From NCBI GenBank assembly GCA_950295325.1, contig OX485806.1, forward strand, positions 32,738,001 to 32,802,000: 64,000 nucleotides of DNA, read 5' to 3'. The notes beneath the pieces were generated by a model. The model saw only the letters and a program-made list of their open reading frames with translations. It was not told where the DNA came from and made no database searches. Position 1 is the stretch's first letter. Every line of letters begins with the position of its first letter. The translations under genes were made by a program, and so were the position numbers. The DNA is from Polytrichum commune (lineage: Eukaryota; Streptophyta; Polytrichopsida; Polytrichales; Polytrichaceae). Below, one piece after another: positions 1-62,029 of this stretch.

Positions 1-2210
1 ACAGCATTTCCAACCACATTAAGCACAGTTTGCATTAGACGCTTCTCATCACCCACCACAAACTCAGGGAGGTCCGGAGCAAGGTACAATTCTGACTTAA
101 GTTTTTTCAGCGACATTATTGGTGAGACCAACTTCAACACCTGCATCGTAAAATACACAAGTAATGGTCAATATGAAGTGTTGATGAAGGCCCCGGAATT
201 TAAAGTTCTAGTAAATCCCCTACAAATAGCATTGTTCCCTTTAACTGTGTGTGTTTTTGTTCAGTCCCTACATTTGAACGTGCACACCAAGAGCTCAGAC
301 ATGTGTAAGACTATTCAACAGCAAGCGCACTAAACATTGCTACAGTTTTAAAAAAAACTAAGCCTGCTTCAAAAACTAAGGGACTCTGAACCATACCTCC
401 CTTAGAGCACCAGGAAGGTTGAAAGTGCGCATCTCTAGATCCAAGCTCCCGTCTTCTAGTCGGGACACATCCAAAACATCATTAATCAGAGTCGCTAATA
501 AATTGCTACTCTTCAGTATGGTATCCACCATGGACCGTTGTTCTGGGCTCAACTCTGATTCCTGCAAGAGGGAAGACAGGGCAATAATGGCATGCATGGG
601 TGTGCGCATTTCATGGTTCATAACTTCTAGAAAATCATTTCTGGCCCGTATAGCTGTCTCAGCATCACGTCGTGCCACATCCAGAACCACATTTTGTTCC
701 ATAAGAAGGTTCCTTGCTCTCATCGACTCTTCTAAAAGAGCTGCATGTGATAGTGCCACAGCCACCTGCACGGAAAGACAGAGAAAGCATGTCCAAAATA
801 TCACCTTTAATATACACCAACTATGTCAACCAAGAACAAAGTGAGAAAGGAGGCTCAATACATCCAGAAATATATTAACAGATATACCCCACTCATTGAG
901 ACTAAATATAGGAAGAGAGAAGGAAATGATTTACTCTAAACAAATACCCAATGAGGCCGTCAGAACTCAACTTTGAGTTTCTTATGACCTGTGTTTTACC
1001 CGAACAACATTCTATTCTATTTTGAGCATCACACTGAACTAGTCATAACTTAAAATCATAACATCCTTACGTAAGATACCTCTTGGAGAAGGAGCAATGA
1101 AAGCCCAACATGGGCATTAAGCAAAAGTGTCAATAAAGCTAGAATGCATTTCTCAGCTACTCCACATTTTGAGAGAGAACTTTCAAGCTATCGGTACTAG
1201 TAGCCCTGGTAGTACGAAAGCATGTATCTGCACACACAGGCCTCGACTGGCAAGAAAAGGACAGAACAGAGAATGTAATAGAAAGTGGTCGTTGCAGGTC
1301 TCACCTGGTCTACAACAACTTCAACTAATTGTAGTTGATGGATATGCCACCTGCGGGCACTATTAGAAGGCAGCATGAGTACCATCAGTGCATATGTTCG
1401 CTTTGGACTATCAGCCCATTCAGCACCCTGGAAGTTGGTGAGGTGGAGAAGTGGCACCCGAACAGCTACAGTATCCCCAACCATGTGCTTATTCTGCCGG
1501 GGTCTAATCATGCACACCGGACTACTAGGTGAAATTACAACAGCCCGCTGGCTGCTGAATACTTGCTTAACTACATCATGATACATAGGAACTGTAATTT
1601 GTCCTGGCTCCAGTTGCCGTAAGGAATGGGCGAGCTGTAAATCTTGACCATTCCTTGTTGGCATCCACAGTGTACATTCCTCAAGGTCGAGTGTCTTTCC
1701 TAATTCCACCAACGTAGTCCTTAATATTGTGTGCCTGTCAAGAGTGCTCCGAATTTCATGAGTGAGCATGTGGACATGCCGGCCAGTCTCTTCCCGAGTT
1801 CGTATCAAACCCATCTCCCGATCCAGCTCAGCTGCCTTATTTTTCAAAAAAAGCTCCCGAGTTTTCACGCTAAGGAGGTCGGGGATGATATGAATGAGCA
1901 TGAGGGCAGTTGCACAAGACACAATCGCTGTGAAGATCTTGGCCACTGTAAGGACCACTGCTACTGTCCGAGAATGAGAACTGAATGTCCAGAGGTTGAT
2001 GAGATGAGTAGCTCCGCAGAGAACAATAAACGCCCCAAATTGCACCAGCACCCATCGGTACGGAAAGATGGAGGACTTCTTTACAAAGTAGATCAACTCC
2101 AACGGAATCGAGAAGTAGGCCAGGGAGATGAAAAAATCTGATACATACTGGTATCGCATCAACAGATCATCTGCGGGCCATTGAGGCTCGATACAGTTGC
2201 ACGAATCCAT
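1..2210 (-). CDS. ETR1: Ethylene receptor, ETR1 type (subfamily I), 3' end cut by window edge
   Basis: ER-membrane ethylene sensor, a hybrid-kinase family member that represses ethylene responses through CTR1 when unliganded. Three coding exons are visible: 2210-1305 (302 codons), 765-397 (123 codons) and 140-1, all phase 0 with GT-AG introns; the gene runs off the window. The N-terminus reads [20 protein letters not shown], with the dimer cysteines C4 and C6, three membrane segments (about 24-115), D25, and the copper ligands C65 and H69 in [14 protein letters not shown] domain follows (about 155-300). The phosphoacceptor His falls at residue 353 in [13 protein letters not shown], the same number as in Arabidopsis ETR1. 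The last partial exon reads [13 protein letters not shown] and stops at the N box (LNVVGNA). Whether a receiver domain follows (ETR1 versus ERS1) lies outside the window, so the symbol is by similarity. The start is fixed by homology. The leader carries an intron and uORFs. Confidence 0.95.
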
Positions 2211-20100: not shown

Positions 20101-20924
20101 TGGACCATCCACCTCCCCCTTTCCAAAGCAATTCCAAGTCATTTGGCATCCATATCTAAGAGATAAGTACTAGTCAAGTTTGGATATATGCTAATGAAGT
20201 ACACACATGAGCCGACTTGAATTGGCCACTACAACCATATGACCACACTATATGAAGTCCAAAAGTAAATCCCTTACTTTACCAAGAGAAGAGAGAAGAA
20301 ACGTTGATCATGTGATCAAACTTAACTTTAAAGTAAATCCCTTACTTTACCAACTCCCAATTCAAACAAATTATCACAAGTTATTATTTCTTGAGGCACA
20401 ATAATGAATTTCCTTAACAAGAAAATAAAATAATAAAGGGGTTCTTCGCTCAACATGGTCCAATCAAACTATATATTTTAAGCTATCTGCACCAAGATTG
20501 GCACTTGTTCATTATGTCAATGCATGCTCCATGGTCCATGAATTTTCGATGTATAGAGTTCTAAAAAATCTACACAAGGTATCGGAAGGAATAGAGCTGA
20601 AGAGTTCATGAAGTTTAATATCTTGCCAAAAAGATACGTCATTGTGCATAAGGTTAGCCTATATTTAGATTGTATATTTTGAATCACCTCACGAGGTATG
20701 GTCCAACGGTTCTCTAGAACGTATGTTTTTATAACAATACCTTCAAAAGTAGTCCCAACAACCTTATATGCAATACTCTTCCATTTTAACAACTTATCAA
20801 TTGGAAGTTCAAGTGGACAAACTTGTACCAATTGTAAACCACGAATACACAACTACCCACTAAACACTTTTTCTTGTGCCACATGTATATCTCATCCTTC
20901 TCACAAAGTATGAAGCACCATAAA
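16216..20924. other. Gene-free stretch
   Basis: No recognisable gene. It contains a (TC)n tract at 17120-17153, several TGTCAATTGAC palindromes at 16605-16765, and a direct repeat of about 20 bp (AAGTAAATCCCTTACTTTAC) near 20265 and 20332. The open frame at 19421-19786 (121 aa, LQLDDEEPILALELLHANW) has no family I recognise. It could be a decayed fragment. Confidence 0.45.
17120..17153 (+). repeat. (CT)n microsatellite
   Basis: About 17 uninterrupted CT units. Confidence 0.95.
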
Positions 20925-21778: not shown

Positions 21779-23742
21779 TTAGTCATTTTGTCATAAGCAT
21801 AAGAAGGTGAATCACACATGATAGAGTTGTGCTTTCTCCCTAAACTACACATCGTGTCACAATCACATTGGCAATGAGAGCAAGCATTATGTTTGTTCAA
21901 TCGCATATTATTCCATGTTATCATCAACTCGTTTAGAGCCTGATGGTATATACAACAACATGCATTTCAAACTCCAAGCCATTTCACCCACCATGGTTTC
22001 AAGCTTTTAGACTAACTCAAGTTACAACCAACAAAAGGATTTTTTTTTCCTTGAAGGATGTCTAGAACTCAAGCTACATAAGGAGAAGGGAGTTAACAAC
22101 AACTAAATAATCATGTTCAAGCAATACGGAAGAGCTTAACATTAGCATTAGCATTTAGGAGGAGCCTAAGTAGCTCTTAAGCACCCAAGCAAAAGCCATA
22201 TAAGCAACAAACAATGGATATTAACTCAATAATGGGGGTACCAAGTGAGAAAACACATCAACATTCAGTTGGATCTAAGGACGGGGCCATGCAACCCAAA
22301 TTTTTTTGGAAACTTTTCATTGTTCACCAAAAGTTGCACTCTACCAAGGATTGGACCTTAAATTGATTATTCCTAAGCATAGAAGGAAAATACACCAATT
22401 GTTATTGGCCAAGGAACCACACTTAAGCAATGAGTTTGATATACGCACTTGTGAAGGAAATAAGTGAAATATGAAACCCGTTGTTTGAGTCCTTCATAAA
22501 AACCTATGGTGTCATTTATACACTCTCATAAGTGTTGCAACTTAATAACATCCAAATTACTTAAAAATCAAGGAATCGTGTCCTTCGTGTACGAATAAGA
22601 CACACAATTTACGTAGAGTAAGGTGTTGTATATTTCCATCCTATTATTTCAAACGGGAAGAAGTAAATTCAACTAGTTCTTTAGCAAAAGCTGCACTTAT
22701 TCTAGCAACCCTAGTATGACAATGTTCCAAAGTGACAAAGTTTGTGTGCGCATTGAATTTTGGTGTGGCAAGTGGGGCATTGACCAACATCTTCATCCCC
22801 ACCCATCCGCCTTATTGCTTCTCTATGTACCAAAGTTAATATGCTTCACCTACAAAGTTTGACATTGTTTGCGGTGTTTGCCATTGCTATAAGCCAACCC
22901 CTCTATGCAGTTTGTAATAATGTTCTTATGAACCCTAACTCTAAAACATTGTGATTGTTTTTATTTGCAAAGAAAGTTGCTATGCAGTAGACACGCAAGA
23001 AGGTCGCATATTGGAGGCCTAGCAAAGGTGAGGACTTCAACAATAAACCCTAATGTGCAAGTCTACAACTAGAGATGCCAAAGCCAAAGCAAGAGTTTCA
23101 ACCGTAAATCCATAGCTAGAGAAGTTGAAGCCAAGGTGAGAGCTTCAACCGTAACTCCTATTGTGCAAATCCTTAGCTAGAGACATTGACGCAAATGGAA
23201 TGCACATTCCATGCAAATGTGGGGAAGATACTCAACCTACATCCCAAATTGTCTAACCAATATCATGCAATTATTAACGAGCCACTTTCATCCAATTATC
23301 CACGATTCAATTTCTCATTGTTTTCATAGTTTCCATAGCACATAGTTTTCATCCATTTGTAATGTAATCAAGCACCAAAAACATTGTTACACTTACTTTT
23401 TTTTAAGGGCCTTAAACATATATAAATATGGAATCCTAAATATGCAACAAATTATATATTTATTCCAATATTTTATTGTTGTTTTTTTGCATTATAAAGG
23501 TATAGAAATAGCCAAAATAAGGAGTGTTAACACATTTATGGCTCCTAATAACTTAAGTGCACTAGGAGTGTTATATCTACCCAACATGAAACCTAATCAA
23601 AAATCAGAGACTCCAAATTTCAATATTATAATCTCGGTCTCACATATCTAATAATAATGAACTTTAATACTTGTCAAGGGCTCTTGTACTAAAAACTATT
23701 GTATAGGTCATTAAACTACATAAACATATGATTTTATTAAGG
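21779..23742. other. Gene-free stretch
   Basis: No gene recognised. Around 22980-23180 a motif of about 65 bp recurs two to three times (AGAGCTTCAACCGTAA..., GCAAATCC...AGCTAGAGA...), forming a short degenerate tandem repeat. Confidence 0.4.
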
Positions 23743-25816: not shown

Positions 25817-26440
25817 GAGGCATGTGTGTATATTAATGTTAGGTTCTATAGATTGACAAGCCCGGAGGAGGTTTTTTTAAAAGTCTTATGTTCTTTTTTT
25901 CTTGGAATAAAATAGTTTTTGTTGTTGCTTCTATTGTTGACGTGTAATTTTGACTACTTTCCTTTTGCAGCTTCGCTTTGCATTGGACTTACTACTCAAT
26001 TGAGCACCCAAATATACAATGACAAAAATAATCTTATATATGTTTCTTCCCATGAAGGTAAGACAAATGGAGGTTTGTATCACATACTAAATATAGAAAC
26101 ACAAGTCAACCATAAGATGAATAATGCGAGGCATATGTGTATATAAACACTGGTTTCTATAGATCGATAAGCTTGGAGGAGGATATCTAAAAATCTTATG
26201 TTTGATTCTTTTCCTTGAAATAAAGTAAAACGTCCTACTTCTATTGCTGATATACAATTGTGTTTGCTTTCCTCTCGTGGCTTCGCTTTACACCAGACTC
26301 ACTGATTAACTGAACACCCAATTATACAATGACAAAAACATAATATTGTCTAGGATTCTTCCCATGAAGGTAAGACAAACAGAGGGCCCGTGTCGCATGC
26401 TAAATATAGAAAAAGGAACTCAACCATAGAGGTGAATAAT
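25817..26440 (+). repeat. Tandem duplication, two units of about 311 bp
   Basis: Unit 1 (25817-26127) and unit 2 (from 26128) share, in order, GGCATRTGTGTATAT, TTCTATAGAT, AAGCYTGGAGGAGG, TTGCTTCTATTG-like, GCTTCGCTTT, CAATGACAAAAA and TTCTTCCCATGAAGGTAAG. Diverged by substitutions. Non-coding. Confidence 0.75.
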
Positions 26441-28730: not shown

Positions 28731-31700
28731 ATGGACAATTTTTTGAGATGGGGTCTCTTTGCTTTGTGCTTACTGGCATTCACTGTAGATGCTGTAGCAG
28801 GAGCTGGGAGTACTGCTTCAGGTCATCCAGGATGCAATTGTGAGGAGGATTGGGGTTTGCTTGAGTTAGTAACTCGCTGCCAGCTGGCCAGTGATTTTCT
28901 AATCGCTCTTGCATATTTCTCTATCCCACTCGAACTGATCTATTTTGTCAGTTTCTCACATGTGTTCCCATTCCGGTGGATTATCATTCAGTTTGGAGCA
29001 TTCATCGTCTTGTGTGGGTTGACACATTTTATATCAATATGGACCTATGGCCCTCATTCTTTTCTAGTAATGCTATTGCAAACCATTCTGAAGATTGCAA
29101 CCGCACTAGTTTCTTGTGCAACGGCAATTACTTTGGTTCATGTAATACCAACACTTCTCCATGTTAAGGTAAGCCATACCGTATCTTTTGGGGGTTTGAG
29201 AGGGTAGTGATCAAAGGATGCTACAGTCAATTGTTGGTGCTGCTGATATACTATATGCTGCTGTGCTGTGCACGACAATGTGACTAGGTTTGAACTTTTG
29301 TCTGGTTGATGACTTCTAATACCCTGCTTCAAGCTTTTGGAGGCTTAGAGCTTGTAAGGATCAACAAGTACTTTGAACAAGTGCATTATACATACTGTTA
29401 GTGCTCCAGTTTGGTGCCCCATCTTAGACAGTGCTTCTTTGAGGTTGTTCATTTGCACCTCAAGCCTACTTCTTTAGAGGTCTTCATCAGAGAAACTAGC
29501 AATGGATGTGTGACAAGTCTATGATACAGGTACGGGAGCTGTTTTTGAAGCATAAAGCTGCTGAGCTGGACAGGGCAATGGGTATCATTAAGACCCAAGA
29601 AGAGGCAGGGTGGCATGTGCGCATGTTGACGAATGAGATTCGGAGTACCCTTGACCGTCACACCATTTTAAATACAACGCTTGTGGAGCTAGCCAAGACT
29701 TTGTCGCTGGAAAACTGCACTATCTGGATGCCTAATTCTGAGGGGGATGCCTTGGAACTCACTCATGAGCTTGAGAGACGATTTATTCAGGTTTTCTTTT
29801 TTATGGTGTCATACTTTAGGTCAAAGCTTCAAGATTTGTGTGCTTATAAATTTCAAAGCTCAAAATTGAGTTGTATTATGAGTTCGTGTACGTCTGGACA
29901 TTTCTTGAAGTTGCTATATTCTCTTTAGTGAGTCCACAGTCCCATGTGTTTCAATTTGGTCATCAACGACGTACAAATGTTTGAAGGGAGGTCCACTCTT
30001 TTGTGGAGCCTGACCTCCACATGTCCTGGACTCAAATATATGAAATAAAGGTGTAGAGAGTTGGTCTAGGACTTTCACAGAAATGGGTGAGTCTGGTCCT
30101 TGTTCTGACTATTCTCTTTCTAGAATCTGAAAATGTTATGTTTTACTGTTTGTGACTAAGGAATTTTTGTGGTGTTTGCTTCTCCAGATTCCTGTTACTG
30201 TCGCTGCTTCTGACCCATGTGTCCAGACCATTGTTCAGACTAGTGAAGCTATAGTCATACCTCCGATCTGTGCTCTTGGGAAAGCCAGTAGCCATCGTTT
30301 AAATGCAGGTGCCATGGCAGCAGTGCGTCTGCCTTTGCTTCACGTGTCAAATTTCAAAGCAGGAAGTGCTCAGCGCACACGAGAAATTCTTAGTGCCTCA
30401 TATGCCATTTTGGTCTTGGTGTTACCAAGTGAAAGTGGTCGAGTTTGGACTGCAAATGAAATTGAGATAGTGGAAGTTGTGGCAGATCAGGTACAATACG
30501 CTCAAATTTGTGACAGTCTTTCGAAGTTCCTCACCTGTAGATGATTTGGGCTTAGTTCAAGCTCAACAAGGTGTGGTGAGAAGCTGTAGGAAAGTTTTCT
30601 CGCTGAGCTTTATGCAGGATTCCAATATTAAGTAAGCGGAAGTAGAATGTGCCCATCTTCTAGACCATGTATATGTGGGCTTTGTATTGAAGCTGGAACC
30701 AAGTGGTGTATGCAGGTTGCAGTGGCTTTGTCACATGCAGCAGTGTTGGAAGACTCCCAGCGTACAAGGGACAAGTTGGTCGAACAAAATAAAGCATTAC
30801 AACAGGCACGGCAGGATGCAGAAACAGCTATTCGGGCCCGCAATGACTTCTTGGCTGTTATGAATCATGAGATGCGGACCCCAATGCATGCTATTATTGC
30901 CCTGTCGTCTCTTTTACAAGAAGGGAACTTGTCTATGGATCAGCGTGGTATGGTGGACACTGTGGTCAAAAGTAGCAGTCTTCTCTCAACTTTGATCAAT
31001 GATGTTCTTGATTTCTCACGGCTGGAAGATGGAAGCTTAGATTTGGAGATGCGACCTTTTGAGCTTCCAACAGTGCTAAGGGAAGCTGCAAACCTTGCCA
31101 AACCTATGGCAAAGGGGAAAGGCCTTGATTTTATATTCAATGTTGTTGATATACCCATGTACGTAATAGGAGATGAAAAGCGCCTTTTGCAAACCACATT
31201 GAACATAATTGGCAATGCGGTGAAATTCACCAATAAGGGTTATGTATCAGTGGTGGCCAGTGTGGAGAAGTATGATGGGTCTGTAAGGCGGGACCCTAGG
31301 ACTCCTTGGCGCCCCATACCATGTGATGGTTTTGTGCATGTCCGGATTGTTGTTGAGGATACAGGTTTGGGCGTGAGTCAGAATGATATTCCTCGTCTGT
31401 TTAACAAGTTTGTTCAAGCTGACAGCACAACTACACGGCAGCAGGGGGGCACTGGGTTAGGGTTAGCAATCTGCAAGAAGTTTGTTCAGGTGTGTTACCA
31501 TCACCGATACTCGTTTCTTCACTGGTCCATGTGTAATTTAGGTACGATTTTGGTGCAATCGATTTTAGTGCTGAAGTAACAATCACAACCAGGATGACCT
31601 TACAAATGCCAAGGCAAGCCAAGGAGTTTTGAGGTGTCGGACATGTGGATATGTTTGATCTTACTATTTTGAGAAAGTATGCTTGAAAAAGAAATTGTAT

Positions 31701-41625: not shown

Positions 41626-44600
41626 ATGAAGGGAAATGCAGGGCGATCGAGGCCTGCACCTGCACAGTGTGAGAGGGATCCATTTGGCCTCGGGTTGCAT
41701 GCAAAGTCGTCCCCAGGTATTGTGGAAGTTGCGAAACGTCGAGCTCGCAACAATGGCGGAAACATGGCTCCGAATGGTGGCGCCACCAATGTGAGTATTC
41801 ATCCTCTTATTGAAATTGTAATGTTTTTGATGATGCAAGCCACTAATGTTAGTCATTCTCTTATTCAAATTGAAAGAGCTTAATGACGCAAGTCACCAAT
41901 GTGAGTCATTCTCTTATTGTAATTGAAAGCATCTTGATGATGCAAGCCACCAATGTGAGTCATTCTCTTATTGTAATTGAAAGCATCTTGATGATGCAAG
42001 CCACCAATGTGAGTTAATTTATTATTGAACTTGCAACGGTTTGATGATGGAAGCCAAATGTGAGTCATTCTTCAATAAAATGGAAAGGGCTTGATGACGC
42101 AAGTCACCAATGTAAGTCATCCTTCAATAAAATGGAAAGGGCTTGATGATGCAAGTCACCAATGTAAGTCATTCCTTTATTGAAATTGAAAGGGTCTTGA
42201 TGATGCAAGCCACCAATGTGAGTCATTCTCTTATTGAACTTGAAACGGTTTGATGATGGAAGCCACAAATGTGAGTCATTCTCTCAATAAAATGGAAAGG
42301 GCTTGATGATGCAAGTCACCAATGTGAGTCATTCGTTTAATAAAATGGAAAGGGTTTTGATGTTGCAGCTCCAGAACCAATCTTCCTTCAATTCCTCACC
42401 CACTTTCTCCCCTCACTCATGAGAATTTGGTGTCACTAAATTTGTTGCCATTTGCTTTTGCAGATGCTGGATACACCATCAACGACACCATCTAAACCAG
42501 CAACAAAAGGATCTAAAACCCCAGGAGGAGCAACGAAAGAGTCGCCTGTGCCTGGCAGTCCAGCTTTGATGCCCAAGCTTCCCAGGCCATTGCCTGCTCG
42601 TAGCATGCATCCTCTAAGTCAGGGTCAGGATGTAATCACGCAAGTTCCTCCCACAGGTCCCGGGCCGGACCAAGGCCATTCTTCCAAAAGGAAACTGAAT
42701 TTGGAAGTCCAAGTAGGAAGTGTTGTGGAGGGAATCACCAATACTGGAGCTGTGGATCCCTCTGACACTGGAGTCAAGGTAATTGGGAAGAATGACAAAA
42801 ATTACAGATCACTACTTTCAAGATATCTTACTGAATTTCATTTCCTATTTTGCACCATTTGCTCATAGCTAGCTGTGTGACTCATACCAGGTGATAGTGA
42901 GAGTGCGACCACTGAACAAGAAGGAGGAAGCCGAGGAGGCTACACATGTGGTGCAAAAAGTGTCGTCCAATTCTGTGTCACTGGGTGACCAACAGTTTAC
43001 CTACGATGCTGTGGCTGGTGAAGCGGAGTCTCAGGTATGCTGAAAGATCTGTGTTTGGGATGCTCAACTACAATGGTGATCACCATCCCTCAATTTTCTC
43101 ACTGAGACTTCTTTGACTGATATTTTGATGGTGTGTATGTGGAGAACTAAGATTCTTAGGTCTTACTCTGTTTGTAGAAAGCTGTGTTTGAGATGGTGGG
43201 TTTACCTATGGTGGAGAACTGCCTGGCGGGCTTCAACAGCTCCATATTTGCTTATGGCCAGGTACTGCACTTTTTGACACCTGGATGATGGAATTATATA
43301 GCCTGTGTTGTGCTATGTTGTCATCACCTTTGAGATCCATTGATTCATCTATACTTGATGGTTATACATTGTCATGGAAAGTGGGTTTGATGAATGTCAT
43401 GTTTAAGATGATCTTATCTGTTTCACCTACTCTTGTTGGTCACACTGTTATGGGAAGTGTGTTTTTTGAAGTTTGAGATAATTACGTCTGTTTCAGTTTT
43501 CAACTTTTCATGCTGGTTACACTTGTCATGGAAAGTGGATTTGGTGAATCTATATGATAATCATGTCTTTCATTTTCACCTATTCTTGTTGGTGATGCTG
43601 TCAGGGAGAGGTGGTATGATGAATGTTTGAGATAATCATGCTTCTTTCACTTTTAAACACTTATTGTTGGTTGTGCTGTCATGGAAAGTGGGTTTGATGA
43701 ATACTGACCTCGTTGTCCACCATTCTTTGTGGATGCTAGACGGGAAGTGGAAAAACACATACAATGTGGGGTCCCATGTCCAGTTCAAGCACTGAACCGA
43801 TGCCAACAGAAGAGCGGGGAATTACTCCACGTGTCTTTGAGCAGCTCTTTGCACGTATTCAACAGGTTCTGTCTACAGTATCTCTCAAAATTCATATCTG
43901 ATCCCGTAGTATATACAAAATTTATTACCACGAAGCAAATCCCTCGTCTTCCAAGTATCTCTGAAGAGCACTTCGCATACGCTTAACTTGATTGGATGAT
44001 GAATTTGCAGGAAGAACGAAACAATGTTGATAAGCAACTGCGATACCAGTGTCGTTGCTCCTTCCTTGAGGTAATTCTGAACAAGTGTAATTCTGATGAC
44101 GAGTGTGTATGCCAAGGTGGGAAGCCTCTTGCAAGAAACTGTGAAGAATTGTTTCAACTCATTAATTTTGTGCTGGGAAATGGGTGATGTCAGATTTACA
44201 ATGAGCAAATCACAGATCTACTGGAGCCAACTCAAAAGAATCTCATGGTACTGTACTGCTTAGCCACCTGCTCCTGCTATGTTATCAGTGACACTGTAAA
44301 TTCGGTGACCTGGATTTAATATGTTCACATTCTGACATGAGACTTTCACTGAAGACTAATCAACTGTGAGTGCTATGGACAGATTAGGGAGGACACAAAG
44401 ACAGGAGTTTATGTTGAAGGGCTGACAGAGGAATACGTGTCCAATATGGACGATGTCACCTGCCTTCTTGTCCGGGTAATTTGCTCCACCACTTGGTTCT
44501 TGGATCTATGGTCTTTTCAAGAGGGGTTTACCTCTTACTAGCCCAATTATAGTATAAGGGATAGTTGGGAGTGCTTCCAATGGTTGTAGATGACTTTCTT

Positions 44601-47600
44601 TGGTTCTATCTTGTTTGTAGTTGCTATGTGACACAGGGAGAGAACTTCAAGTCCAAAGCATTGGAGAGGATTTGTAGGATGCAATTACTCTTAGAGAAAC
44701 TGTCCCCTAGAATCTATGAATTGTTTTTCTAGCTCCACTGATTGCAGCCATAGGAGGAAAAAAATTGAGGTGAAATGCACTCTTTAACTACATGTACACC
44801 TTGAATGTAAATGAAAAAGATCTTAGTTGTCGTTGAAAATGGCCCCAAAATACAGCCACTTTCAGGGAGGTCAATTTTATTGATCTCAATGTAGCTCAAT
44901 AATGCTCAACTAAGCAGTAGGTGTGACAACTTGAAATTGCCAGCTTCAGTGAAGATTTGGATTCATCCTGTGATGTGCAGGGGCTTGCTAATAGAAGGGT
45001 TGGTTCCACAGCCATGAACAACGAGAGCTCTCGATCACACTCCGTTTTCACCTTTGTGATAGAGTCTCGCTCTAAGGTGCTGATGACCTTTTTTTTATAT
45101 GTGTGGATCATGTCAAACCCACCCCTTTAAGTGCCTTGTTATTTATTTGGAGTTATTTGGTTGGAGTATGCAAGATGCTCACAATGTACTTGGCCTTTAT
45201 GCAGAGTATTGCTGAGGGTGTAAGCAGTGTAAGGACAAGCAGGATGAACCTGGTCGATTTGGCAGGATCTGAAAGACAGAAACAAACAGGTGCTGCTGGG
45301 GAACGGCTGAAAGAGGCTGGAAATATCAACAAATCCCTCTCACAACTTGGGTGGGCAAACAGATTCTTATATCAGATTGTTTGTTTCTCTTAAATTTGCA
45401 TCTCAAGTGTGTCAGAATTTTGGTTTGTAATGCTCTCATCATGCAGTAGCTTTTATCCAAGCTCAGAATCGTTATATACAATCGCTCATTGGTTCTTCTG
45501 TCATGAATTCAGAAATGTGATCAACATTCTAGCAGAAGTGGCACAAAATGGGAAGCAGCGACACATACCGTACCGCGATTCCCGACTTACCTTCCTTCTA
45601 CAGGAATCTTTGGGTGGAAATGCAAAGCTTGCGATGATCTGTGCTATTTCCCCAGCTAGCAGGTGCGGCTAACATATCTGATTGTAACATAACCGCCTTC
45701 TCATAAAGCTTCAAGAAGAAAAGAAAAAGTATGACATCATGATTTTGGAAATACAAGATGCAGTCTCTGATTGTGGTTCACCGTTGCAGTTGCCGGACTG
45801 AGACATTGAGCACATTGCGATTTGCTCAAAGGGCTAAAGCTATGCAGAACAAGGCAGTGGTGAATGAGGAGACTGCCAATGATGTGAACCTTTTGCGTGA
45901 GCAAATTCGTCAACTCAAGGTACTAAGCTTCCCTTTGCAGTGAGTCAGCATCTTGTCCTGTCACCTTGATTAATGACATTCAAATACAAATCATGCGCAG
46001 GAGTTGCTCAAAATGAATTCCCAGAAATTCTGCTTTGCCCACCAAAACCATTTTTGGGGTCATGTGATTGTTGATGTTCAGAAGTTTAGATTCACCAGCA
46101 ACTTAGAATCTGCAGGGATTATCAATATTTTCAGTGGTTGACCTTGCGTCCATGTGAATGGCATACAGGATGAGCTCACAAGAATGAAAGAAAACAGTGG
46201 TAACCAGCACCAGGGGCAAGTGGGAGGATTTTCCAATGGGTGGAATGCCAGACGGAGCTACAACCTTCTTAGACTAAGTCTGGGTCAGCCCATGACAATC
46301 GCTCCAGTTGAATTCAAGGACATCGATAAGGAGGTAGAACTTATCAGGCAAGAAGTGCATGAGTTTGAGACCATCGCCGAGGATGTAAGTGCCTCTTCGA
46401 TTGACACAGAAACCAAAGAATTATTACCACAGGATGCTATCAAGGATGTGGAAACCATACCAGCTGTAGGGGAAGATGGGGAGGAATTAAGTGAGCTTCA
46501 CAAGCAACAGGATTCCACAACACCGAGTGGGCCCGACTTCCCAGAACTGACCCTGAGCCTCATATCACCAACTTTAAGCGAGTCACCGAGGGTGAAAGAA
46601 GAGAAGAATTCTGCACTGGGTTTAACTAAATCTCCACTGGGTGGCAATGTCCGCAGTAGCAAGGCTTTTTCATCCTCCGCTGAGCAGCTGGCTGCAAGTC
46701 TTACTCGCGGCATTGAAGTTCTTGACAACCACCAGCGCTACTCATTGTCCATTGTCAGAAGGTGAGTGTGATTAGCAAGTTCTCTGGGAAAGCAACAGAG
46801 GATAAATATTGGCTAAAGAATATACTGAAAACTTCAAACCTTTCATGTAAGATGCCTGAAGTCTGATGCATTTTTCCACCCACTTGAATTCATAGTTTAT
46901 TGTGCTAATGAATGTTCTGAAAAACCTACAAAATTTTCCTGTAAGAGTGCTTGTAAGTGTGATGCAATACTTTACCCGTAGCAACTGATTATTGAATCCA
47001 AAATTATTTGTGCTAAAAGATGTTCTGGGAAATCTCAAACCTTTCTTGTAAGGTGGGTGAAGTGTGATGCAATATCCCACCCATGGCAACTGGCCATTTA
47101 ACAGCATCCCAGATTTTCCTGACCGAGGTGATTTTGCTTTAGGTTTTCTGATGCACGATTTTCATTCCAAAATGCGGACTCTCCAAACACAACGAATCTG
47201 AAGAGACTTATAAGCTCGAGCAACACCCCTCTCGTGCAGGAGACTCAGGACATTCTGTGCCTTCCTGAAAATGAGAATGTGTCAAAGGAACCACCAACAG
47301 CTCAGCCAGAGTCTCCTGCACCTGGGGAGCTATGTCTATGGCCTCAGAATACAACGGAAGGTTCTTCCAAGATGATAGTGCCCACCACTCCACCTGCCCA
47401 TAAACAGCATTCCCAGGTAGACATTTGCTCACAGATTGTTGCTTTAACATCACATGTGGTAGTATATTGTGAGCTACTTTCAAGGTTTTGTAAAGTATTC
47501 CACTTGTCATGGTGTTGACAGCGGAACACCTGAGGTTAATGGCAGATGAATATTTTCAGCAAGATTGATGGGAATTTCTGAGTTATTGCTCGGGATGACG

Positions 47601-50600
47601 GTTATTTGCTCAGATGCACATCAGGTGTAATGGTTGTGTCCCGCCTGTTACAGGATTTGGAGGTACTATTGGCGGGCTCTCTGAGGAGAGAGAAGACTTC
47701 TGAAGAGACTATTGCTCAGCAAGCTGCTGACATTGAGCAGCTTAGTCGCTTGGTATGACTCTGATCCTTTTCATGTTTTAATCTTGCAGATTTTTTTTTT
47801 AAAAGCAAAAAAATGTAAATGAGAGTATGTACATGTGAAATGCTAACACATCATTTCCATTGGAGCATTGAGAAATGCCTTGTATGCATATGAAATGCTT
47901 GTTTCATGTATTGAGAGGAGAAGCTCTTGTAGGAAACCATTAATCTGACTATTCCATTTTCACATAGTATAATTATTCCATGTGGGATGAACAGGTGTGC
48001 CAATACAAGCTTGAGAGGGAGTGCAATGCAATCCTTCAACAAAGCCGGGAAGAGAAGATCGCTCGCATGGAGAGCCTGGTGGATGGCATCCTTCCCGTTG
48101 AGGACTTCTGCACAGATGAATGGACTGCTCTGCAGCTTGAACACAAGGTAAGTAAAAAATTGTGTATTAATACAGATTAGCCCCTCTAAGCCTTGCCCTA
48201 CACCATGAAGGAAACATAAGTATTTGACATCCTTTACCCAGAAATACTTTCTGAGCAGCATCATGCAATACAGTTGTGCAACCCATTGATGCCTTGTTTC
48301 AAGCATGTCACTTAGAGATTCCATGAGCATTGTAGAGTATGGAATCTGATCCTGATGTGTGTGTGTGTGTGTGTGTTTGTGACTCTTTCTCTTTGGCCAG
48401 TTGCTACAAGAGAAGTTCGAGCAGCATCCAGAGCTAGCGGACGCAAAAGCTGAGCAACAACTGCTCCGGCACGAGATTCAGCAGTACAAGAGTTTCTGTG
48501 ACCTTGGGGAGCGAGAGAAGCTGCAAGAGGAGATTGTGCATCTGCGGAACCAGCTGCACTCGTATCTTGAAATGTGCACCTCAGGATCCTTGAAGCATCG
48601 ACGGCTCTCTCTCACTCCGAAGAAGAGCGTTCTCCCGCACAGCCCCATCAAGCTTATGTCCCTCACTGCTGTTCCAGAGGCAATGCCATCTTGTGAATCG
48701 ACATCTTCTTCAAATTATCTCAAGGAGGAACAGCCTCCAGTGTCGCCAACGGAGGCTCGAGCCAGTGAGCTCTTGGAGCAGGAACGAAGAGAGTGGGATG
48801 AAAGGGAAAGGGAATGGACTTCGGTTGTCCAAGAATTGAGGGAGGAGTGTGACCATCACATGCAGTTGGCAGAAAAGAGGCGGAAGGAACTTGAGATTGA
48901 AAAGAGGTGAGTTTTACTTCATCAAGGTCATGTGCTTCATCTAGAGAGAATTTCACACATTTGGGTAGATATCAGAGTCATCTTTAACTCAATGGGACTT
49001 TTGTCAGGAGTTGGTCCCTTATGATTTTCCATTGGTTGTTTTGCATACAACATCAATAATATCTTTTCACCTGTGGTGCATGCTTGGAATTTGAATGAAG
49101 AGCAACCTATTTCATTTCATTGAGGCCCAAACTCATTTTAGCACCTCTTGGCATTCGAACACGAGTTTGACCCTCAGTGAACTGATCAAGAATATGATTC
49201 GCTCAAACCTCTACACTACCTCCAAACTCGCACCGAAAGGTTACAAACAAAACAAAAAACTCCCCATCAAAACTTATGCCGAGTTCGAGAATAACTCTAT
49301 TCTGATCTTTCTGTGTACTACACAAATTGCATTTGTGACATCATATTGGTAGATGGATTCCAAATATTGTTGTTTTTATGAATGTAGGTGTTCGCAAGAA
49401 ATACACGATGCGCTTCAGATGGCTATGACAGGCCATGCTCGCCTGCTGGACAACTACGCAGAGCTTCAGGAGAAGCACATCATCCAGTTAGGAAAGATGC
49501 GGGAAATCCGTGAAGGTGTGCTTGACATCAAGAAGGTGGCGAAGCGGTCTGGCTTAAATAATGTGGAGGAACGTTGGTTCGATGTCCAGGCCACACAAAT
49601 TGTGTACATGAAAGTTGAGCAAGATCGGTACCGAGAGGAGATTCAGGGTTTACAAGCACAGCTGCAAGATACTGCAGATGCAGTGCAAGCTGCCGGAGAA
49701 CTCCTTGTCCGGCTGAAGGAGGCAGAGCAGGCTGCTATAATTGCCAAGGTAATCTGACATTGTGCCTTAGTCTTGATAATTCTGAAGGAATGTCATACTT
49801 TTGTTTGGTCAATTCGTCATTTCCATCTGGTAGGTACACCCTAGTTTCACATTCTTCTTCTACATTGTTCTACAATATGCATTTGTCCTCATTTCCTAAA
49901 TTTGGTAGTTTTTGGTTATTTCCATCTTGTAGGTAGACCCTGCTCCACATTCTTCTTACACATTGTACTGTGATATGCTTTGTTACCTTGGACTTGCCCT
50001 CATTTCTCAAATTTGGTCTGTTTTGTCATATTGTCATTTCCATCTGGTAGGTAGACGCTGTTCCACATTTCTTTTTGCCTTGCATTTGTCCTCATATCTC
50101 AAATTTGGTCGTTTAGTCATTTTGTCATACCAATCTGGTAGGTAGACCTTGTTCCTCATTCTTCTTCTTACACATGGTTTTGTGATATGCTTGCATGTGC
50201 ATCGCATTTGTTGCATTACATTTGCCCTCATTTCTCAATTGTCATTTTGTTGTGAATGTACCAGCAATCAGCTGAAGCGGCGGAGCAAGAGGCAAGTGAG
50301 GTCCGTAGGGACTTGGAGAAATCAAACAGACGGCATGCCAAAGAGGTGGCGTCACTACAGCAGCGATTATTAAACCTGCAATCACAAAGTGCTGCTCCTT
50401 GCCCTAAGTGCGGTGCATCAAATCCTGTGAAAAGCAATGAAGGACAGAAACTCCATGTAGTTGATGATGACCAGGTTCAAAATAAAGTCGTCGATAACAG
50501 AGATGCATCAAATACTGGGAATGTCACAGATAGCTGGAGCAGTTCAACAAGTCTATCAGATTGCACTGAGGACAAGTGTCTCTCAGACAGTTGGGCCAGC

Positions 50601-50864
50601 GGTACTGTGGTGACACTCCAGGAAGACAAGAAAAGTGTTCTGCATAGCTGGACAAGTGGTCGGGATGAGGTTGAAGAAGATACTGATGAAGTTGAAGAGG
50701 AAGAGGACGAGGAGTTTGGGAGCCAGAGCTTGAGGTTCAGTCGAAAAGGGTATCAAAACCTGGAGAATCTGGAAATTGAAGTTGAGGATGAGGATGATTA
50801 CCTGTGCGAGGTGTGTGGCCAGACATCTACAAATGGGATGCGAGTGTGCGATTCTTGTATCTGA
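41626..50864 (+). CDS. KIN12: Kinesin-12 (PAKRP1-like phragmoplast kinesin)
   Basis: Plus-end microtubule motor of the plant phragmoplast, needed for cell-plate formation. About 1382 aa in 19 exons: 41626-41790, 42464-42778, 42891-43034, 43178-43261, 43740-43865, 44011-44070, 44194-44247, 44383-44475, 44981-45076, 45205-45350, 45513-45662, 45790-45919, 46169-46761, 47143-47416, 47654-47752, 47995-48147, 48401-48906, 49388-49748, 50265-50864. All junctions are GT-AG and in frame. The motor spans about 157-510: [12 protein letters not shown] loop GQTGSGKT (235-242), switch [10 protein letters not shown] (360-368), switch [10 protein letters not shown] (395-402), then [17 protein letters not shown] of the neck. 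The stalk is coiled-coil. The C-terminus has an acidic stretch, three SW(S/A/T)S motifs and four cysteines (1364, 1367, 1378, 1381) as CX2C-X10-CX2C. Size fits PAKRP1 (about 1290 aa), not the much longer POK type. The start could instead be ATG 42464 if exon 1 is skipped. Confidence 0.93.
41780..42372 (+). repeat. Tandem array in kinesin intron 1 that repeats the splice donor
   Basis: About eleven units of 50-57 bp, the first overlapping the exon 1 end. Each unit has GATGATGCAAG, then CCACCAAT, then GTGAGTCATT and an AT-rich tail. The authentic donor is GCCACCAAT/GTGAGT at 41790-41791, so nearly every unit carries a ready-made donor. Two successive units (about 41887-41994) are identical. The array ends about 90 bp before the acceptor at 42463. 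Confidence 0.9.
43360..43710 (+). repeat. Tandem repeat filling kinesin intron 4, unit about 85-90 bp
   Basis: Four to five units share TTGTTGGT, CTGTCATGGAAAGTGGGTTT, GATGAATGT and TTGAGATAATCATG. The intron is 478 bp against about 110-140 bp for introns 2, 3 and 6. Confidence 0.8.
46795..47110 (+). repeat. Tandem repeat filling kinesin intron 13, unit about 105 bp
   Basis: Three units share GCTAAARGATGTTCTGRRAA, CAAACCTTTCTTGTAAG, GAAGTGTGATGCAAT and CCCACCC. The first unit is the most diverged. Confidence 0.75.
48357..48376 (+). repeat. (GT)n microsatellite in kinesin intron 16
   Basis: Ten GT units, about 25 bp upstream of the acceptor at 48400. Confidence 0.9.
49799..50250 (+). repeat. 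Tandem repeat filling kinesin intron 18, unit about 110-120 bp
   Basis: Four units share TCATTTCCATCTGGTAGGTA, GACC(C/T)TGTTCCACATTCTTC, TGTGATATGC and TTTGTCCTCATTTCTCAAAT. Each contains TCTGGTAG/GTAGAC, an acceptor fused to a donor-like GTAG. Confidence 0.8.
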
Positions 50865-52609: not shown

Positions 52610-53893
52610 TCACTTGCAGGCAGTCAAAGGAGCACCACAGAGGCCAACATTCCCAGTTGGTCCAAAAGACGTAGCCGGGAAGCGGCTCAAGCAGCTGGGG
52701 ATCTGGCCACTGAAGCTGTTCCCTGCCAACTCCAAGGTTTTGAGGGAACTTTTGCAAAGCTCCGAGGGAATAGTGCCATTCAGCTCATTATTGGCGAGTT
52801 TCAACCATTTCAGAGGCCAGTGTTTCACCACGGTCCCGGGAAGCGGCCCTCCCAGGAGGACATCTAATGTGACATTGCTCAAGTGGACTAGATTAGCCCA
52901 GGTTGCAGGGACGGTATGTCCACTGGAGTAGATTGTTTCTAGGTCCAGCTTCTGCAGGTACGTCAGGTTTCCCAGAGATGGAGCATACTCTCCTGAACTG
53001 GCTTTGAAGTACACTGGGCCTGGTTTGTATTCTAGAGCCTTTCCCATCTTGAGAGACGTCACTCTGCCTTTGCTGTTGCAGGTGGTGACTCTGTATGCCC
53101 TGCTTTGCAACCACGTACAGCAGTCCGGGTTCGTGTCCCAGTCTGACAGGATGCCGTAGGGATCAGACAAAACTGCACAACAAAAAACACAAAGTAGGGT
53201 TAGGGTTACAGTAATGATAAACTGTGATTGACACATTGGTTCTGAAGGTTTAAGCAAATTCTCGTCCATTCTGTCTGGTTCACCATCTTTTCGGTGGGTT
53301 AAGCTGTTCAAACATGTTGTGGATTTCGCAGTATAACTTCCTTAAGACTTGTACTAGTTTGAAGGATAGGCCATCAGAAACAGATAAGGCTTTTCAAAAC
53401 TGGGAGACATCATATGATTGCTGATGGCTCCTGAATCTCTAGTGTAGACTCGCGAGATTGTTTATAAGTGCATTGCAATTCTACACCAAATACTTCAAAC
53501 CAGGCGTTTGACAGCAAAAGGATAAGCAGCAAAACAACAGATGAGACTTCTTAAAATGGGACACAAAATGTGATTGTTGATAATGGCTCCTGAATCGCCA
53601 GTTTAGACTCGCAAGATTAGTTAGCACATTGCAATGATTCTAATCCGAACACTTCAATTATTACATGTCAGAAAGTGTGCAGAGAAAATAAGGAATGCGG
53701 GATGCTCCGACCAATACAAATTGATTTTTTTCTTCTTCTGGACCATTAATTTACACTTACGTGCTTTGAATGCCAGCAACGCATCCCTGTCTCCCGAATA
53801 GCATGTTTTGGCTGCTGTGCATTGTTGCACAAACAGAAGCAGAGCAACCAGGAGCGGCAGAATCCTGCCAACCTTGTTCATGCTTCCCTCCAT
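52610..53893 (-). CDS. Small secreted leucine-rich-repeat protein (PGIP/DRT100-like architecture)
   Basis: Two exons: 53893-53761 and 53172-52610, joined C/TT with GTAAGT donor and TGTGCAG acceptor; 231 aa. The N-terminus MEGSMNKVGRILPLLVALLL is a signal peptide. Then comes a plant LRR N-cap, CYSGDRDALLAFKA joined to LLSDPYGILSDW, with the typical paired cysteine motif NPDCCTW. About four to five LRRs follow, the last two clear (LKWLKLANNELNGTIPSELC, LKTLELAGNSFSGQIPSCLS). It ends GLCGAPLTACK, the terminal cap seen in LRR proteins of this class. There is no transmembrane segment or kinase, so an apoplastic protein is inferred. It is shorter than polygalacturonase-inhibiting proteins (about 330 aa), with fewer repeats. 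A longer frame starts at 53944, but the nearer ATG places the signal peptide properly. Function unknown. Confidence 0.8.
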
Positions 53894-60440: not shown

Positions 60441-62029
60441 CATCTGCCTTAGAGCTGGAGTTGAGAGCTTGAACTTGCAATTTCTGGGAGATTGCTACTT
60501 GGAATGGAGTTGAAGCTGTCATCCAAAGCTTAGGGTATTGAAAGCTTCGCCAATAGTTTGCACAAGCGCTTGAAGTGGCCTTGCTCAAAGTGAGATATCA
60601 AGGAAGGGCATGATATTAAACAAAAAAACAATTAATGACGAGGCAAAGGATGATTGAAAGTCCATTGGCTACAGGTTCACAAACTGAGAAAACTCTCGAC
60701 ACTCTTCAGCTACCTCCACTACAAGGACCAAAAGTCGTTGGCACTGGATTTTTGCCACTCGAGGTAGATTTTGGGTATCCAAATCTATTGGTGTAATAGA
60801 TTTGGGTTCCCATAATCTATCTCAAGTGGCTGGAAACCAGTGCTAACAACCCATTCTCCATGTACGGGTTGCTCTGGCACTCAACAAACCCGAAAATATG
60901 ACTCAAACTTGTATATTATATGAAGTTATATTGGTTTCATAATGGACATGAGTTTGAAATGAAATGGATCTCCAGGTTGCAGGAGCATTAATATGTTGGC
61001 CACAGCACAGTAGATATTAAATCCCCTGTTCTTTGCTCCATTTGCATTCACAATGCTCCTCAATACTCATGAAGATGCTTCTCTAAGGCTATATATTTGT
61101 TATAGAAGTACACCCTAAAATCCGTAATATCAACCTCCATTATGTAACACACTCTCTAATATCCCGAAAGCCTAGGGAACGGATGTTTGTAGTTCAAATT
61201 TCACTCTTTATTGTCACATTTCTCTCCCTTATATCACGAAACTTGTCATTAATGCAAATCACCAAAGAAGTCAACCCACACCCTCGCATTGCACCATGTG
61301 TCAACATGTGGAGTGTCTTCTTCTTCTTCTTCTGTCACTTGTTGAATGTTGGTGCATACGTCCGCCACATCACCCGGGAAGGTCAAGTGGAGTGGACCAC
61401 ACTATCGTAGGTGACGGGAGAACGAATTCAAATTGTCCTAAATCTCCTTTGTGTTACTCCATAATGTCACATGCTAAACTAATTCTATAATATCATGCAC
61501 CCATGTTAACACTACAAAACTCCGTAATATCACGTGCACTTTGGTTGCCACAGGTGTGATACTACAGAGTTTAGAGCGTATGTCCACTTTGGACTGGAAA
61601 ACTGTCTCATCCCAAGTACTTAGGCAAACTCAAGCTTGGGTTAGCATCCGGTAGCAAAAACAAAGTGCTAAGGAAACTTCATTAAATAGGCTCATTAGTG
61701 TCACTTACATCTCATAAACTTCCATGACACTTACTTTTACTATGATAGTAAATGTAATATTGGACTACTAGTGAAAATCAACTAGTGTAATCAATATTTA
61801 AGTAGGCAGACATGGCTCCAAATATCTCCACGTATCAAAAAATTGAATCAACATTATCTTAGTAACTTGGAACCACATGTCTTGAACGCAGTGAGTTACT
61901 CTATTCAAATGGTCACTTGATGACCCTATTTGGTGTATAGCAAGGAGTCTATCCACTTTGGAATGAAGGACTTTATCTCATCCCAAGTAGGGTAACTTGA
62001 GGTTGCATAATTAGCATCTAGGTATGGAG
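60441..62029. other. Gene-free stretch
   Basis: No gene. Iterated TCCGTAATATCA-type motifs at 61110-61170 and 61480-61575 belong to the small palindromic repeat described at 24360. A hairpin at about 60740-60840 pairs CTCGAGGTAGATTTTGGGTA with TACCC-like sequence in inverted order (CCAAATCTATTGG...GATTTGGG, ATCTATCTCAAGTGG). Confidence 0.4.

Follow-up and report, generated by a model that had tools for sequence, protein, structure and literature searches.

A minisatellite in the human IFI6 gene was reportedly described in 1995 by Turri et al., whose title states that it "provides multiple splice donor sites", and its unit is said to be 12 nt long. In that gene, tandem units at the end of an exon serve as donors, and two units lying downstream give rise to protein isoforms (extract of PMC4526556). 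A second human precedent is the ABCA7 intron-18 VNTR, whose 25-bp units directly flank exon 18 and supply, as their first GT, its canonical donor; a variant transcript retains one unit, out of frame, through a cryptic donor within the repeat (accessible portion of PMC5954066). Introns are likewise known to have been gained through tandem duplications that span splice signals, and the excerpted texts of four papers on the subject include plant cases, namely potato RdRp and, as a mention, Arabidopsis TOUCH3 (PMC4974935, PMC3443670, PMC3629103, PMC2891723). Here we describe the first intron of a plant kinesin gene, in which the donor end of an old intron has been multiplied into a tandem array, and compare it with these systems.

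Results

The window, by which we mean the whole 64,000-nt stretch of DNA that was analysed (G000:C4:32738001-32802000, within a 408-Mb genome), carries a kinesin gene whose features are collected in Table 1. Among solved structures its motor is best matched by KIF15 (the top four PDB hits are all KIF15 chains, at 328–338 bits, and the next family follows at 272 bits); the motor domain is thus closest to kinesin-12, and the gene is therefore of kinesin-12 type. Two paralogs begin at G000:C7:845672 (paralog 2) and G000:C4:50772194 (paralog 3). By tblastn, all 19 exons were matched in the former and 18 of 19 in the latter, whose exon 14 lies where expected but reached no better than E 0.25. Some of the paralogs' splice junctions were placed at the nearest GT or AG and may be a few bases off (e.g., those of introns 13 and 14).

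Table 1. Positions in the window of the kinesin gene, the parts of its first intron, and other repeated stretches.
Feature	Positions	Strand	Remarks
Kinesin-12-type gene	41626..50864	+	19 coding exons, 1382 aa, single open frame; hand-built GT-AG model
Coding exon 1 (55 aa)	41626..41790	+	ends GCCACCAAT, phase 0; kept in both paralogs
Minisatellite, 11 units of ~53 bp	41782..42367	+	first 9 nt lie in exon 1; four-unit higher-order period of 209 bp
Intron 1 (673 nt)	41791..42463	+	homologous intron present in two paralogs
Donor 1, AAT+GTGAGTAT	41791..41798	+	ancestral donor, judging from the paralogs; 8-nt run of U1 pairing
Copy 2 donor, AAT+GTTAGTCA	41848..41855	+	weakest; sole copy keeping frame open (+19 codons)
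Copies 3-11, AAT+GTGAGT or GTAAGT	41901..42331	+	use of any would lead to stop at codon 86
AG closing last unit (TTGATGTTGCAG, TTGCAG)	42367..42368	+	acceptor-like score 9.8
Intron 1 acceptor AG	42462..42463	+	score 9.3
Exon 2	42464..42778	+	opens with ATG codon
Tandem array, intron 4	43341..43702	+	unrelated to intron 1 unit; away from splice sites
Degenerate tandem array, intron 13	46807..47092	+	unrelated to intron 1 unit
Tandem array, intron 18	49802..50238	+	unrelated to intron 1 unit
Self-similar stretches outside gene	20262-20353, 23021-23183, 25817-26440, 53362-53657, 61583-61989

Exon 1 is encoded in all three genes and ends in each at AAT/GT, in phase 0 and at the same place; its identity to the two paralogs is 48% and 40% (tblastn), and the position and phase of intron 1 are identical in all three, which tells against a newly gained intron. 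The first donors read AAT/GTGAGT in the window and AAT/GTAAGC and AAT/GTGCGC in the two paralogs, so that the atypical exon end AAT (41788-41790) is common to the three. Because G is the usual base at position −1 (48 of 53 donors of these genes, the window's first one left out), the shared T at −1 is a marker of common descent, and it follows from this inherited, T-ended boundary that the duplication described below ran from exon into intron. Since both paralogs have exon 1 and AAT/GT at the same place, exon 1, as the preliminary description assumed, is to be regarded on their evidence as real and donor 1 as ancestral. The opposing view, that exon 1 is not real and that transcripts start downstream at the ATG opening exon 2, can hardly be right: an ATG does stand there in the window gene, but exon 2 opens with CTT in paralog 2 and with GTTGCAGGG in paralog 3, and the identity and splice place of exon 1 in both paralogs speak against it as well.

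Tandem Repeats Finder made a single call on the array (41782-42367; period 54, 11.0 copies, 82% matches), plus a 209-bp period. The units measure, in order, 57, 53, 54, 54, 51, 52, 52, 54, 53, 53 and 53 bp, which bears out the roughly ten extra units previously claimed (11 units of 51–57 bp in all). Unit 1 is the true boundary, consisting of the exon's last 9 nt, GCCACCAAT, followed by GTGAGTAT; the array thus starts 9 nt before the exon's own donor and covers 577 of the 673 bases of intron 1. The off-diagonal self-alignment score of the intron was 599, compared to 21.8 ± 2.1 in 40 dinucleotide shuffles, so the repeat is not a product of chance. A twelfth, degenerate unit after 42368 was considered and rejected (the best local alignment scored 19, shuffled sequence 17.2 on average; P = 0.23).

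Behind the real donor at 41791, donor-like sites follow at 41848, 41901, 41955, 42009, 42060, 42112, 42164, 42218, 42271 and 42324. Their hexamers are GTGAGT in seven copies, GTAAGT in two and GTTAGT in one (at 41848), and GTRAGT occurs 9 times in the 571 bp after the first donor; the remaining 53 introns of this gene and its two paralogs, own donors excluded, hold 8 in 13,425 bp. The preliminary description held that every unit contains the exon end followed by GTGAGT or GTAAGT; this is accurate for the hexamer in 9 of 10 copies, but the exact 9-nt exon end is present in only 3 (8 of 9 positions agree in 6 others, and 4 of 9 in the one at 42060). Nor do all copied donors follow the same upstream word as had been stated, since GATGCAAG precedes 6 of the 10 and GACGCAAG and GATGGAAG precede 2 each. 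That the exon-intron boundary itself was duplicated is upheld: most copies contain the exon's last 9 nt, and none contains the 12 nt before these (best ungapped match in the array, 3/12). The donor array is real and unusual. A DNA search of the genome for related copies, such as an introner or transposon might leave, returned one match, the window itself; very common words were skipped in this search, which leaves absence unproved.

We compared the eleven sites as donors by their pairing with the U1 5′ end. Duplex energy was −7.4 kcal/mol at donor 1, −5.5 or −5.4 at nine copies and −1.5 at copy 2, the gene's 17 other donors ranging from −12.6 to −4.2; contiguous pairing runs over 8 nt at donor 1 and 6 nt at the copies, which lack the +7/+8 pairing because of a three-base difference. 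At the level of sequence, nine of the ten extra units are thus donor-competent, with GTRAGT and about −5.5 kcal/mol. On a weight matrix built from the 53 other donors, donor 1 scored 6.0 and the nine copies 6.0–6.8; on one built from the gene's 17 other donors, the scores were 4.2 and 3.7–4.3, near the bottom of the range of real donors (3.9–12.0). Position-weight scores do not favour donor 1, and sequence strength alone thus leaves donor choice unsettled. The drop in G+C at donor 1, from 56% in the exon to 36% in the array, and its exon-adjacent position would by inference favour it. Where strong donors have been duplicated in animal extracts, the copy further downstream is often preferred, which counts against donor 1. 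None of the eleven sites has AG at the exon end, and 10 are of the GURAG class, a kind of donor that in Arabidopsis suffers more when U6 m6A is lost (PMC9803359).

The consequences of using a copied donor follow from the reading frame. Copy 2 would add 57 nt in frame, the 19 codons previously computed, but its standing as the likely variant is not supported, since GTTAGT pairs with U1 far more poorly than any other site of the series (−1.5 kcal/mol vs −7.4 for donor 1). With any later copy, translation would end at codon 86 (a stop at position 41881, again as first described), and since this applies to all of copies 3–11, leak would give truncated transcripts, which are probable substrates of nonsense-mediated decay.

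On the acceptor side, the AG closing the last unit (42368) outscores the real acceptor of intron 1 (9.8 vs 9.3), and joining donor 1 to it produces a frameshift and a stop at codon 73. The duplicated junction is AAT/GT, and its repeated AGs are poor acceptors: the ten AAG sites scored −8.1 to 1.4, compared to 3.1–12.4 for 53 real acceptors. Because the repeated sites fall below every real acceptor compared, the micro-exons suggested earlier are unlikely. One could still envision a micro-exon chain or recursive splicing in which each GATGCAAG is an acceptor and CCACCAAT an 8-nt exon, since every unit spans GT to AG and the last AG scores so well; however, the acceptor scores, the very short distance from GT to AG (~45 nt) and the frameshift from donor 1 to the last AG make this extremely improbable.

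In a neighbour-joining tree of the units, 3 changes fell in the nine donor columns (all at +3) versus 48 in the other 45; the random-column P value for donor-block conservation was 0.033 with unit 1 and 0.049 without it. No 9-column window of the unit has changed less than the donor, although a non-donor block, TTGATGATG, comes close. This low rate of change weakly hints at selection or homogenisation over pure neutrality, and it brings forward an alternative in which the copies, bound by U1 snRNP, would compete with donor 1 and send an adjustable portion of the pre-mRNA into stop-containing transcripts, copy number or condition setting kinesin output. Besides the donor block, the retention of GTRAGT in 9 of 10 copies and the same early stop after every donor beyond copy 2 fit such regulated competition. 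So does the class of donor 1, which is GURAG without AG at the exon end: in Arabidopsis, losing U6 m6A affects most strongly those donors that match U6 well or have A at +4, an effect that AG at the exon end suppresses (extract of PMC9803359). The length of the ABCA7 repeat, moreover, affects splicing (accessible portion of PMC5954066). We nevertheless consider regulated competition unlikely, given the weak significance of the donor block (P 0.03–0.05), the near-equal conservation of TTGATGATG and the lack of a homologous array in intron 1 of either paralog. Somewhat more doubtful still is the bolder form, in which the copied donors would be kept and not merely tolerated, the GURAG-class ladder competing with the ancestral donor so that copy number and U1/U6 state set the diverted kinesin-12 share.

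Intron 1 is 673 nt long here and 1178 and 1468 nt long in the two paralogs; as both of these are longer, intron 1 may have gained no length from the array. The original proposal of intron extension by boundary duplication is thus borne out for the duplication, whereas net growth of this intron is uncertain. An array homologous to that of the window is absent from intron 1 of both paralogs: in paralog 2 (L010:946-1722), an unrelated, degenerate array of ~150-bp period fills much of the intron and leaves the donor untouched, and paralog 3 has no repeat of at least 30 nt there (self-alignment z 4.2).

This absence bears on two further explanations. Repeated donors near the promoter might recruit U1 without splicing and thereby block premature polyadenylation or boost transcription. 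The ten extra donor-like sites do lie within ~0.7 kb of the ATG, and U1 prevents intronic polyadenylation in Arabidopsis, but the available part of the same paper suggests that where introns are short, cryptic donors within them may be of lesser importance (PMC11489095), and with the array unconserved in the paralogs we regard such a U1 landing strip as very unlikely. The unit might instead act at the DNA level, as an intronic enhancer built of repeated CCAAT and TGAGTCA words, presumably NF-Y and bZIP motifs. TGAGTCA is present in 6 of the 11 units (within 41901-42340); as it is a by-product of the copied donor followed by CA, and is not conserved in the paralogs, a regulatory array of this kind seems a shade less credible again.

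Strong tandem arrays (z > 20; observed z 27 to 274) were found in 6 of the 54 homologous introns of the three genes: introns 1, 4, 13 and 18 of the window gene, intron 1 of paralog 2 and intron 9 of paralog 3. The z values were based on 40 shuffles for each window intron and 12 or 20 for each paralog intron. All introns classed as non-array had z < 5, among them introns 1 (4.2), 17 (4.1) and 18 (3.0) of paralog 3 and intron 5 of the window gene (3.1). Tandem duplication has probably lengthened four of the array introns, because each exceeds both of its homologs, as judged by these comparisons: introns 4 (478 nt vs 187 and 113), 13 (381 vs 157 and 132) and 18 (516 vs 264 and 148) of the window gene and intron 9 of paralog 3 (468 vs 128 and 158). 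Eleven introns exceed 350 nt, five of them without a strong array (window 8 and 17; paralog 3 introns 1, 3 and 14).

Two of the six arrays, in window intron 1 and in intron 9 of paralog 3, cross the donor; the other four lie wholly within their introns. The paralog 3 array (G000:C4:50776450-50776866, in L031) starts 8 nt inside the exon and has three copies, GCTTCAAG+GTGCTTGA, then, 139 nt on, GCTTTAAG+GTGCTATA, and finally GCTTCAAG+ATGCTCGA, in which the copied donor has AT in place of GT. Its unit is unrelated to that of window intron 1, and the two arrays are independent. Both contain just 8–9 exon bases. Duplication ends placed uniformly would make longer exon pieces common, and copies with more exon may compete too well, although this argument is made after the fact from two cases.

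Three pattern searches of the genome gave no clear excess of donor ladders over reversed patterns. Three AG+GTRAGT sites at 38–68 bp spacing had 12 matches versus 21 for the reversed pattern. At 69–99 bp there were 6 versus 3, a difference that favours donors, but the matches are few and partly overlapping. Going by shared letters, most AG+GTRAGT matches belong to a few repeated families. The AATGTRAGT pattern had 10 matches (7 in this array, 3 elsewhere) versus 15 reversed. One or two other arrays of 54-bp period, with CAG+GTGAGT-like units, lie at L015:928-1843 (G000:C2:38344256); no coding exon is evident beside them in the list of open reading frames. At other kinesin loci, self-comparison of 37 motor regions (70,427 bases, chosen from 147 matches, with several clusters and many single-exon matches excluded) found one region with a marginal 28-bp repeat (E 3e-4); the survey was confined to motor regions, and most introns lie outside them. 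The donor ladder thus looks like a rare local event and not a genome-wide process, as judged from the pattern searches and the kinesin motor regions rather than from all introns.

The idea that the kinesin gene is a hotspot for tandem arrays was dropped, as five of the nine self-similar stretches in the window lie outside it (Table 1). One of these (25817-26440) is a 310-bp tandem duplication with a donor-like word, AAGGTAAGAC, in both copies; another (53362-53657) is a tandem duplication of ~159 bp just upstream of a minus-strand leucine-rich-repeat open frame (52610-53311). Two ethylene-receptor-like open frames, both with ETR1_N, lie at lower coordinates than the kinesin gene (1197-2210, minus strand; 28731-29207, plus strand).

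Discussion

The reading that we prefer, with a probability of roughly 0.78, is that the array is a tolerated minisatellite, donor 1 doing most of the splicing and the copies leaking into truncated, probably degraded transcripts. A short tandem duplication would have captured 9 coding bases at the end of exon 1, together with the donor and ~45 intron bases. From there the array would have grown to 11 units, presumably through slippage or unequal exchange, and in one of the steps a block of four units would have been copied. Such an array could be tolerated because the exon-side donor remains in place and would still be chosen, leaving the copies as mostly latent decoys whose occasional use would yield transcripts with the codon-86 stop and, probably, nonsense-mediated decay. 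We infer that the array is nearly neutral, its cost being a slight loss of output and its product no useful isoform. To judge by the second, independent case in paralog 3, duplications across a donor seem to be tolerated when few exon bases are included. If, on the other hand, the copied donors are kept, donor-spanning arrays would be a recurrent control route among these kinesin genes, a possibility to which the unrelated array in intron 9 of paralog 3 points.

To our knowledge, choice among near-identical donors has been studied mostly in engineered duplications. Kinesin intron 1 offers a natural test in a plant, with ten copies, nine near-equal and one weakened, in a single intron, and the two paralogs with a single donor are built-in controls. 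Which donor is chosen here bears on the relative weight of position, U1 pairing beyond +6, and exon/intron composition. A literature search (titles and starts of abstracts, mostly non-subscription, made partly with other aims) found no plant donor minisatellite, which is not proof of absence.

Among the systems described, intron gain by tandem duplication shares with this locus the kind of mutation, one that reshapes an intron across its splice signals. In the excerpted accounts, however, it gives rise to an additional intron, whose source is an exonic proto-splice site or else a piece of a parental intron and exon, whereas the position of the kinesin intron is old and its donor end has been multiplied. 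The unit of IFI6 is far shorter than the ~53 bp found here, and downstream units, in the extract cited above, lead to isoforms in IFI6, whereas in the kinesin gene a stop closes every unit beyond the second. The nearest counterpart is the human ABCA7 intron-18 VNTR which, in the text accessible for it, is also a minisatellite at an exon edge that includes the exon's donor and has further donors within the repeat. The ABCA7 unit is 25 bp long, starts at the GT and varies in array length among people, whereas the kinesin unit is about 53 bp long, includes nine exonic bases and belongs to intron 1 of a plant kinesin gene.
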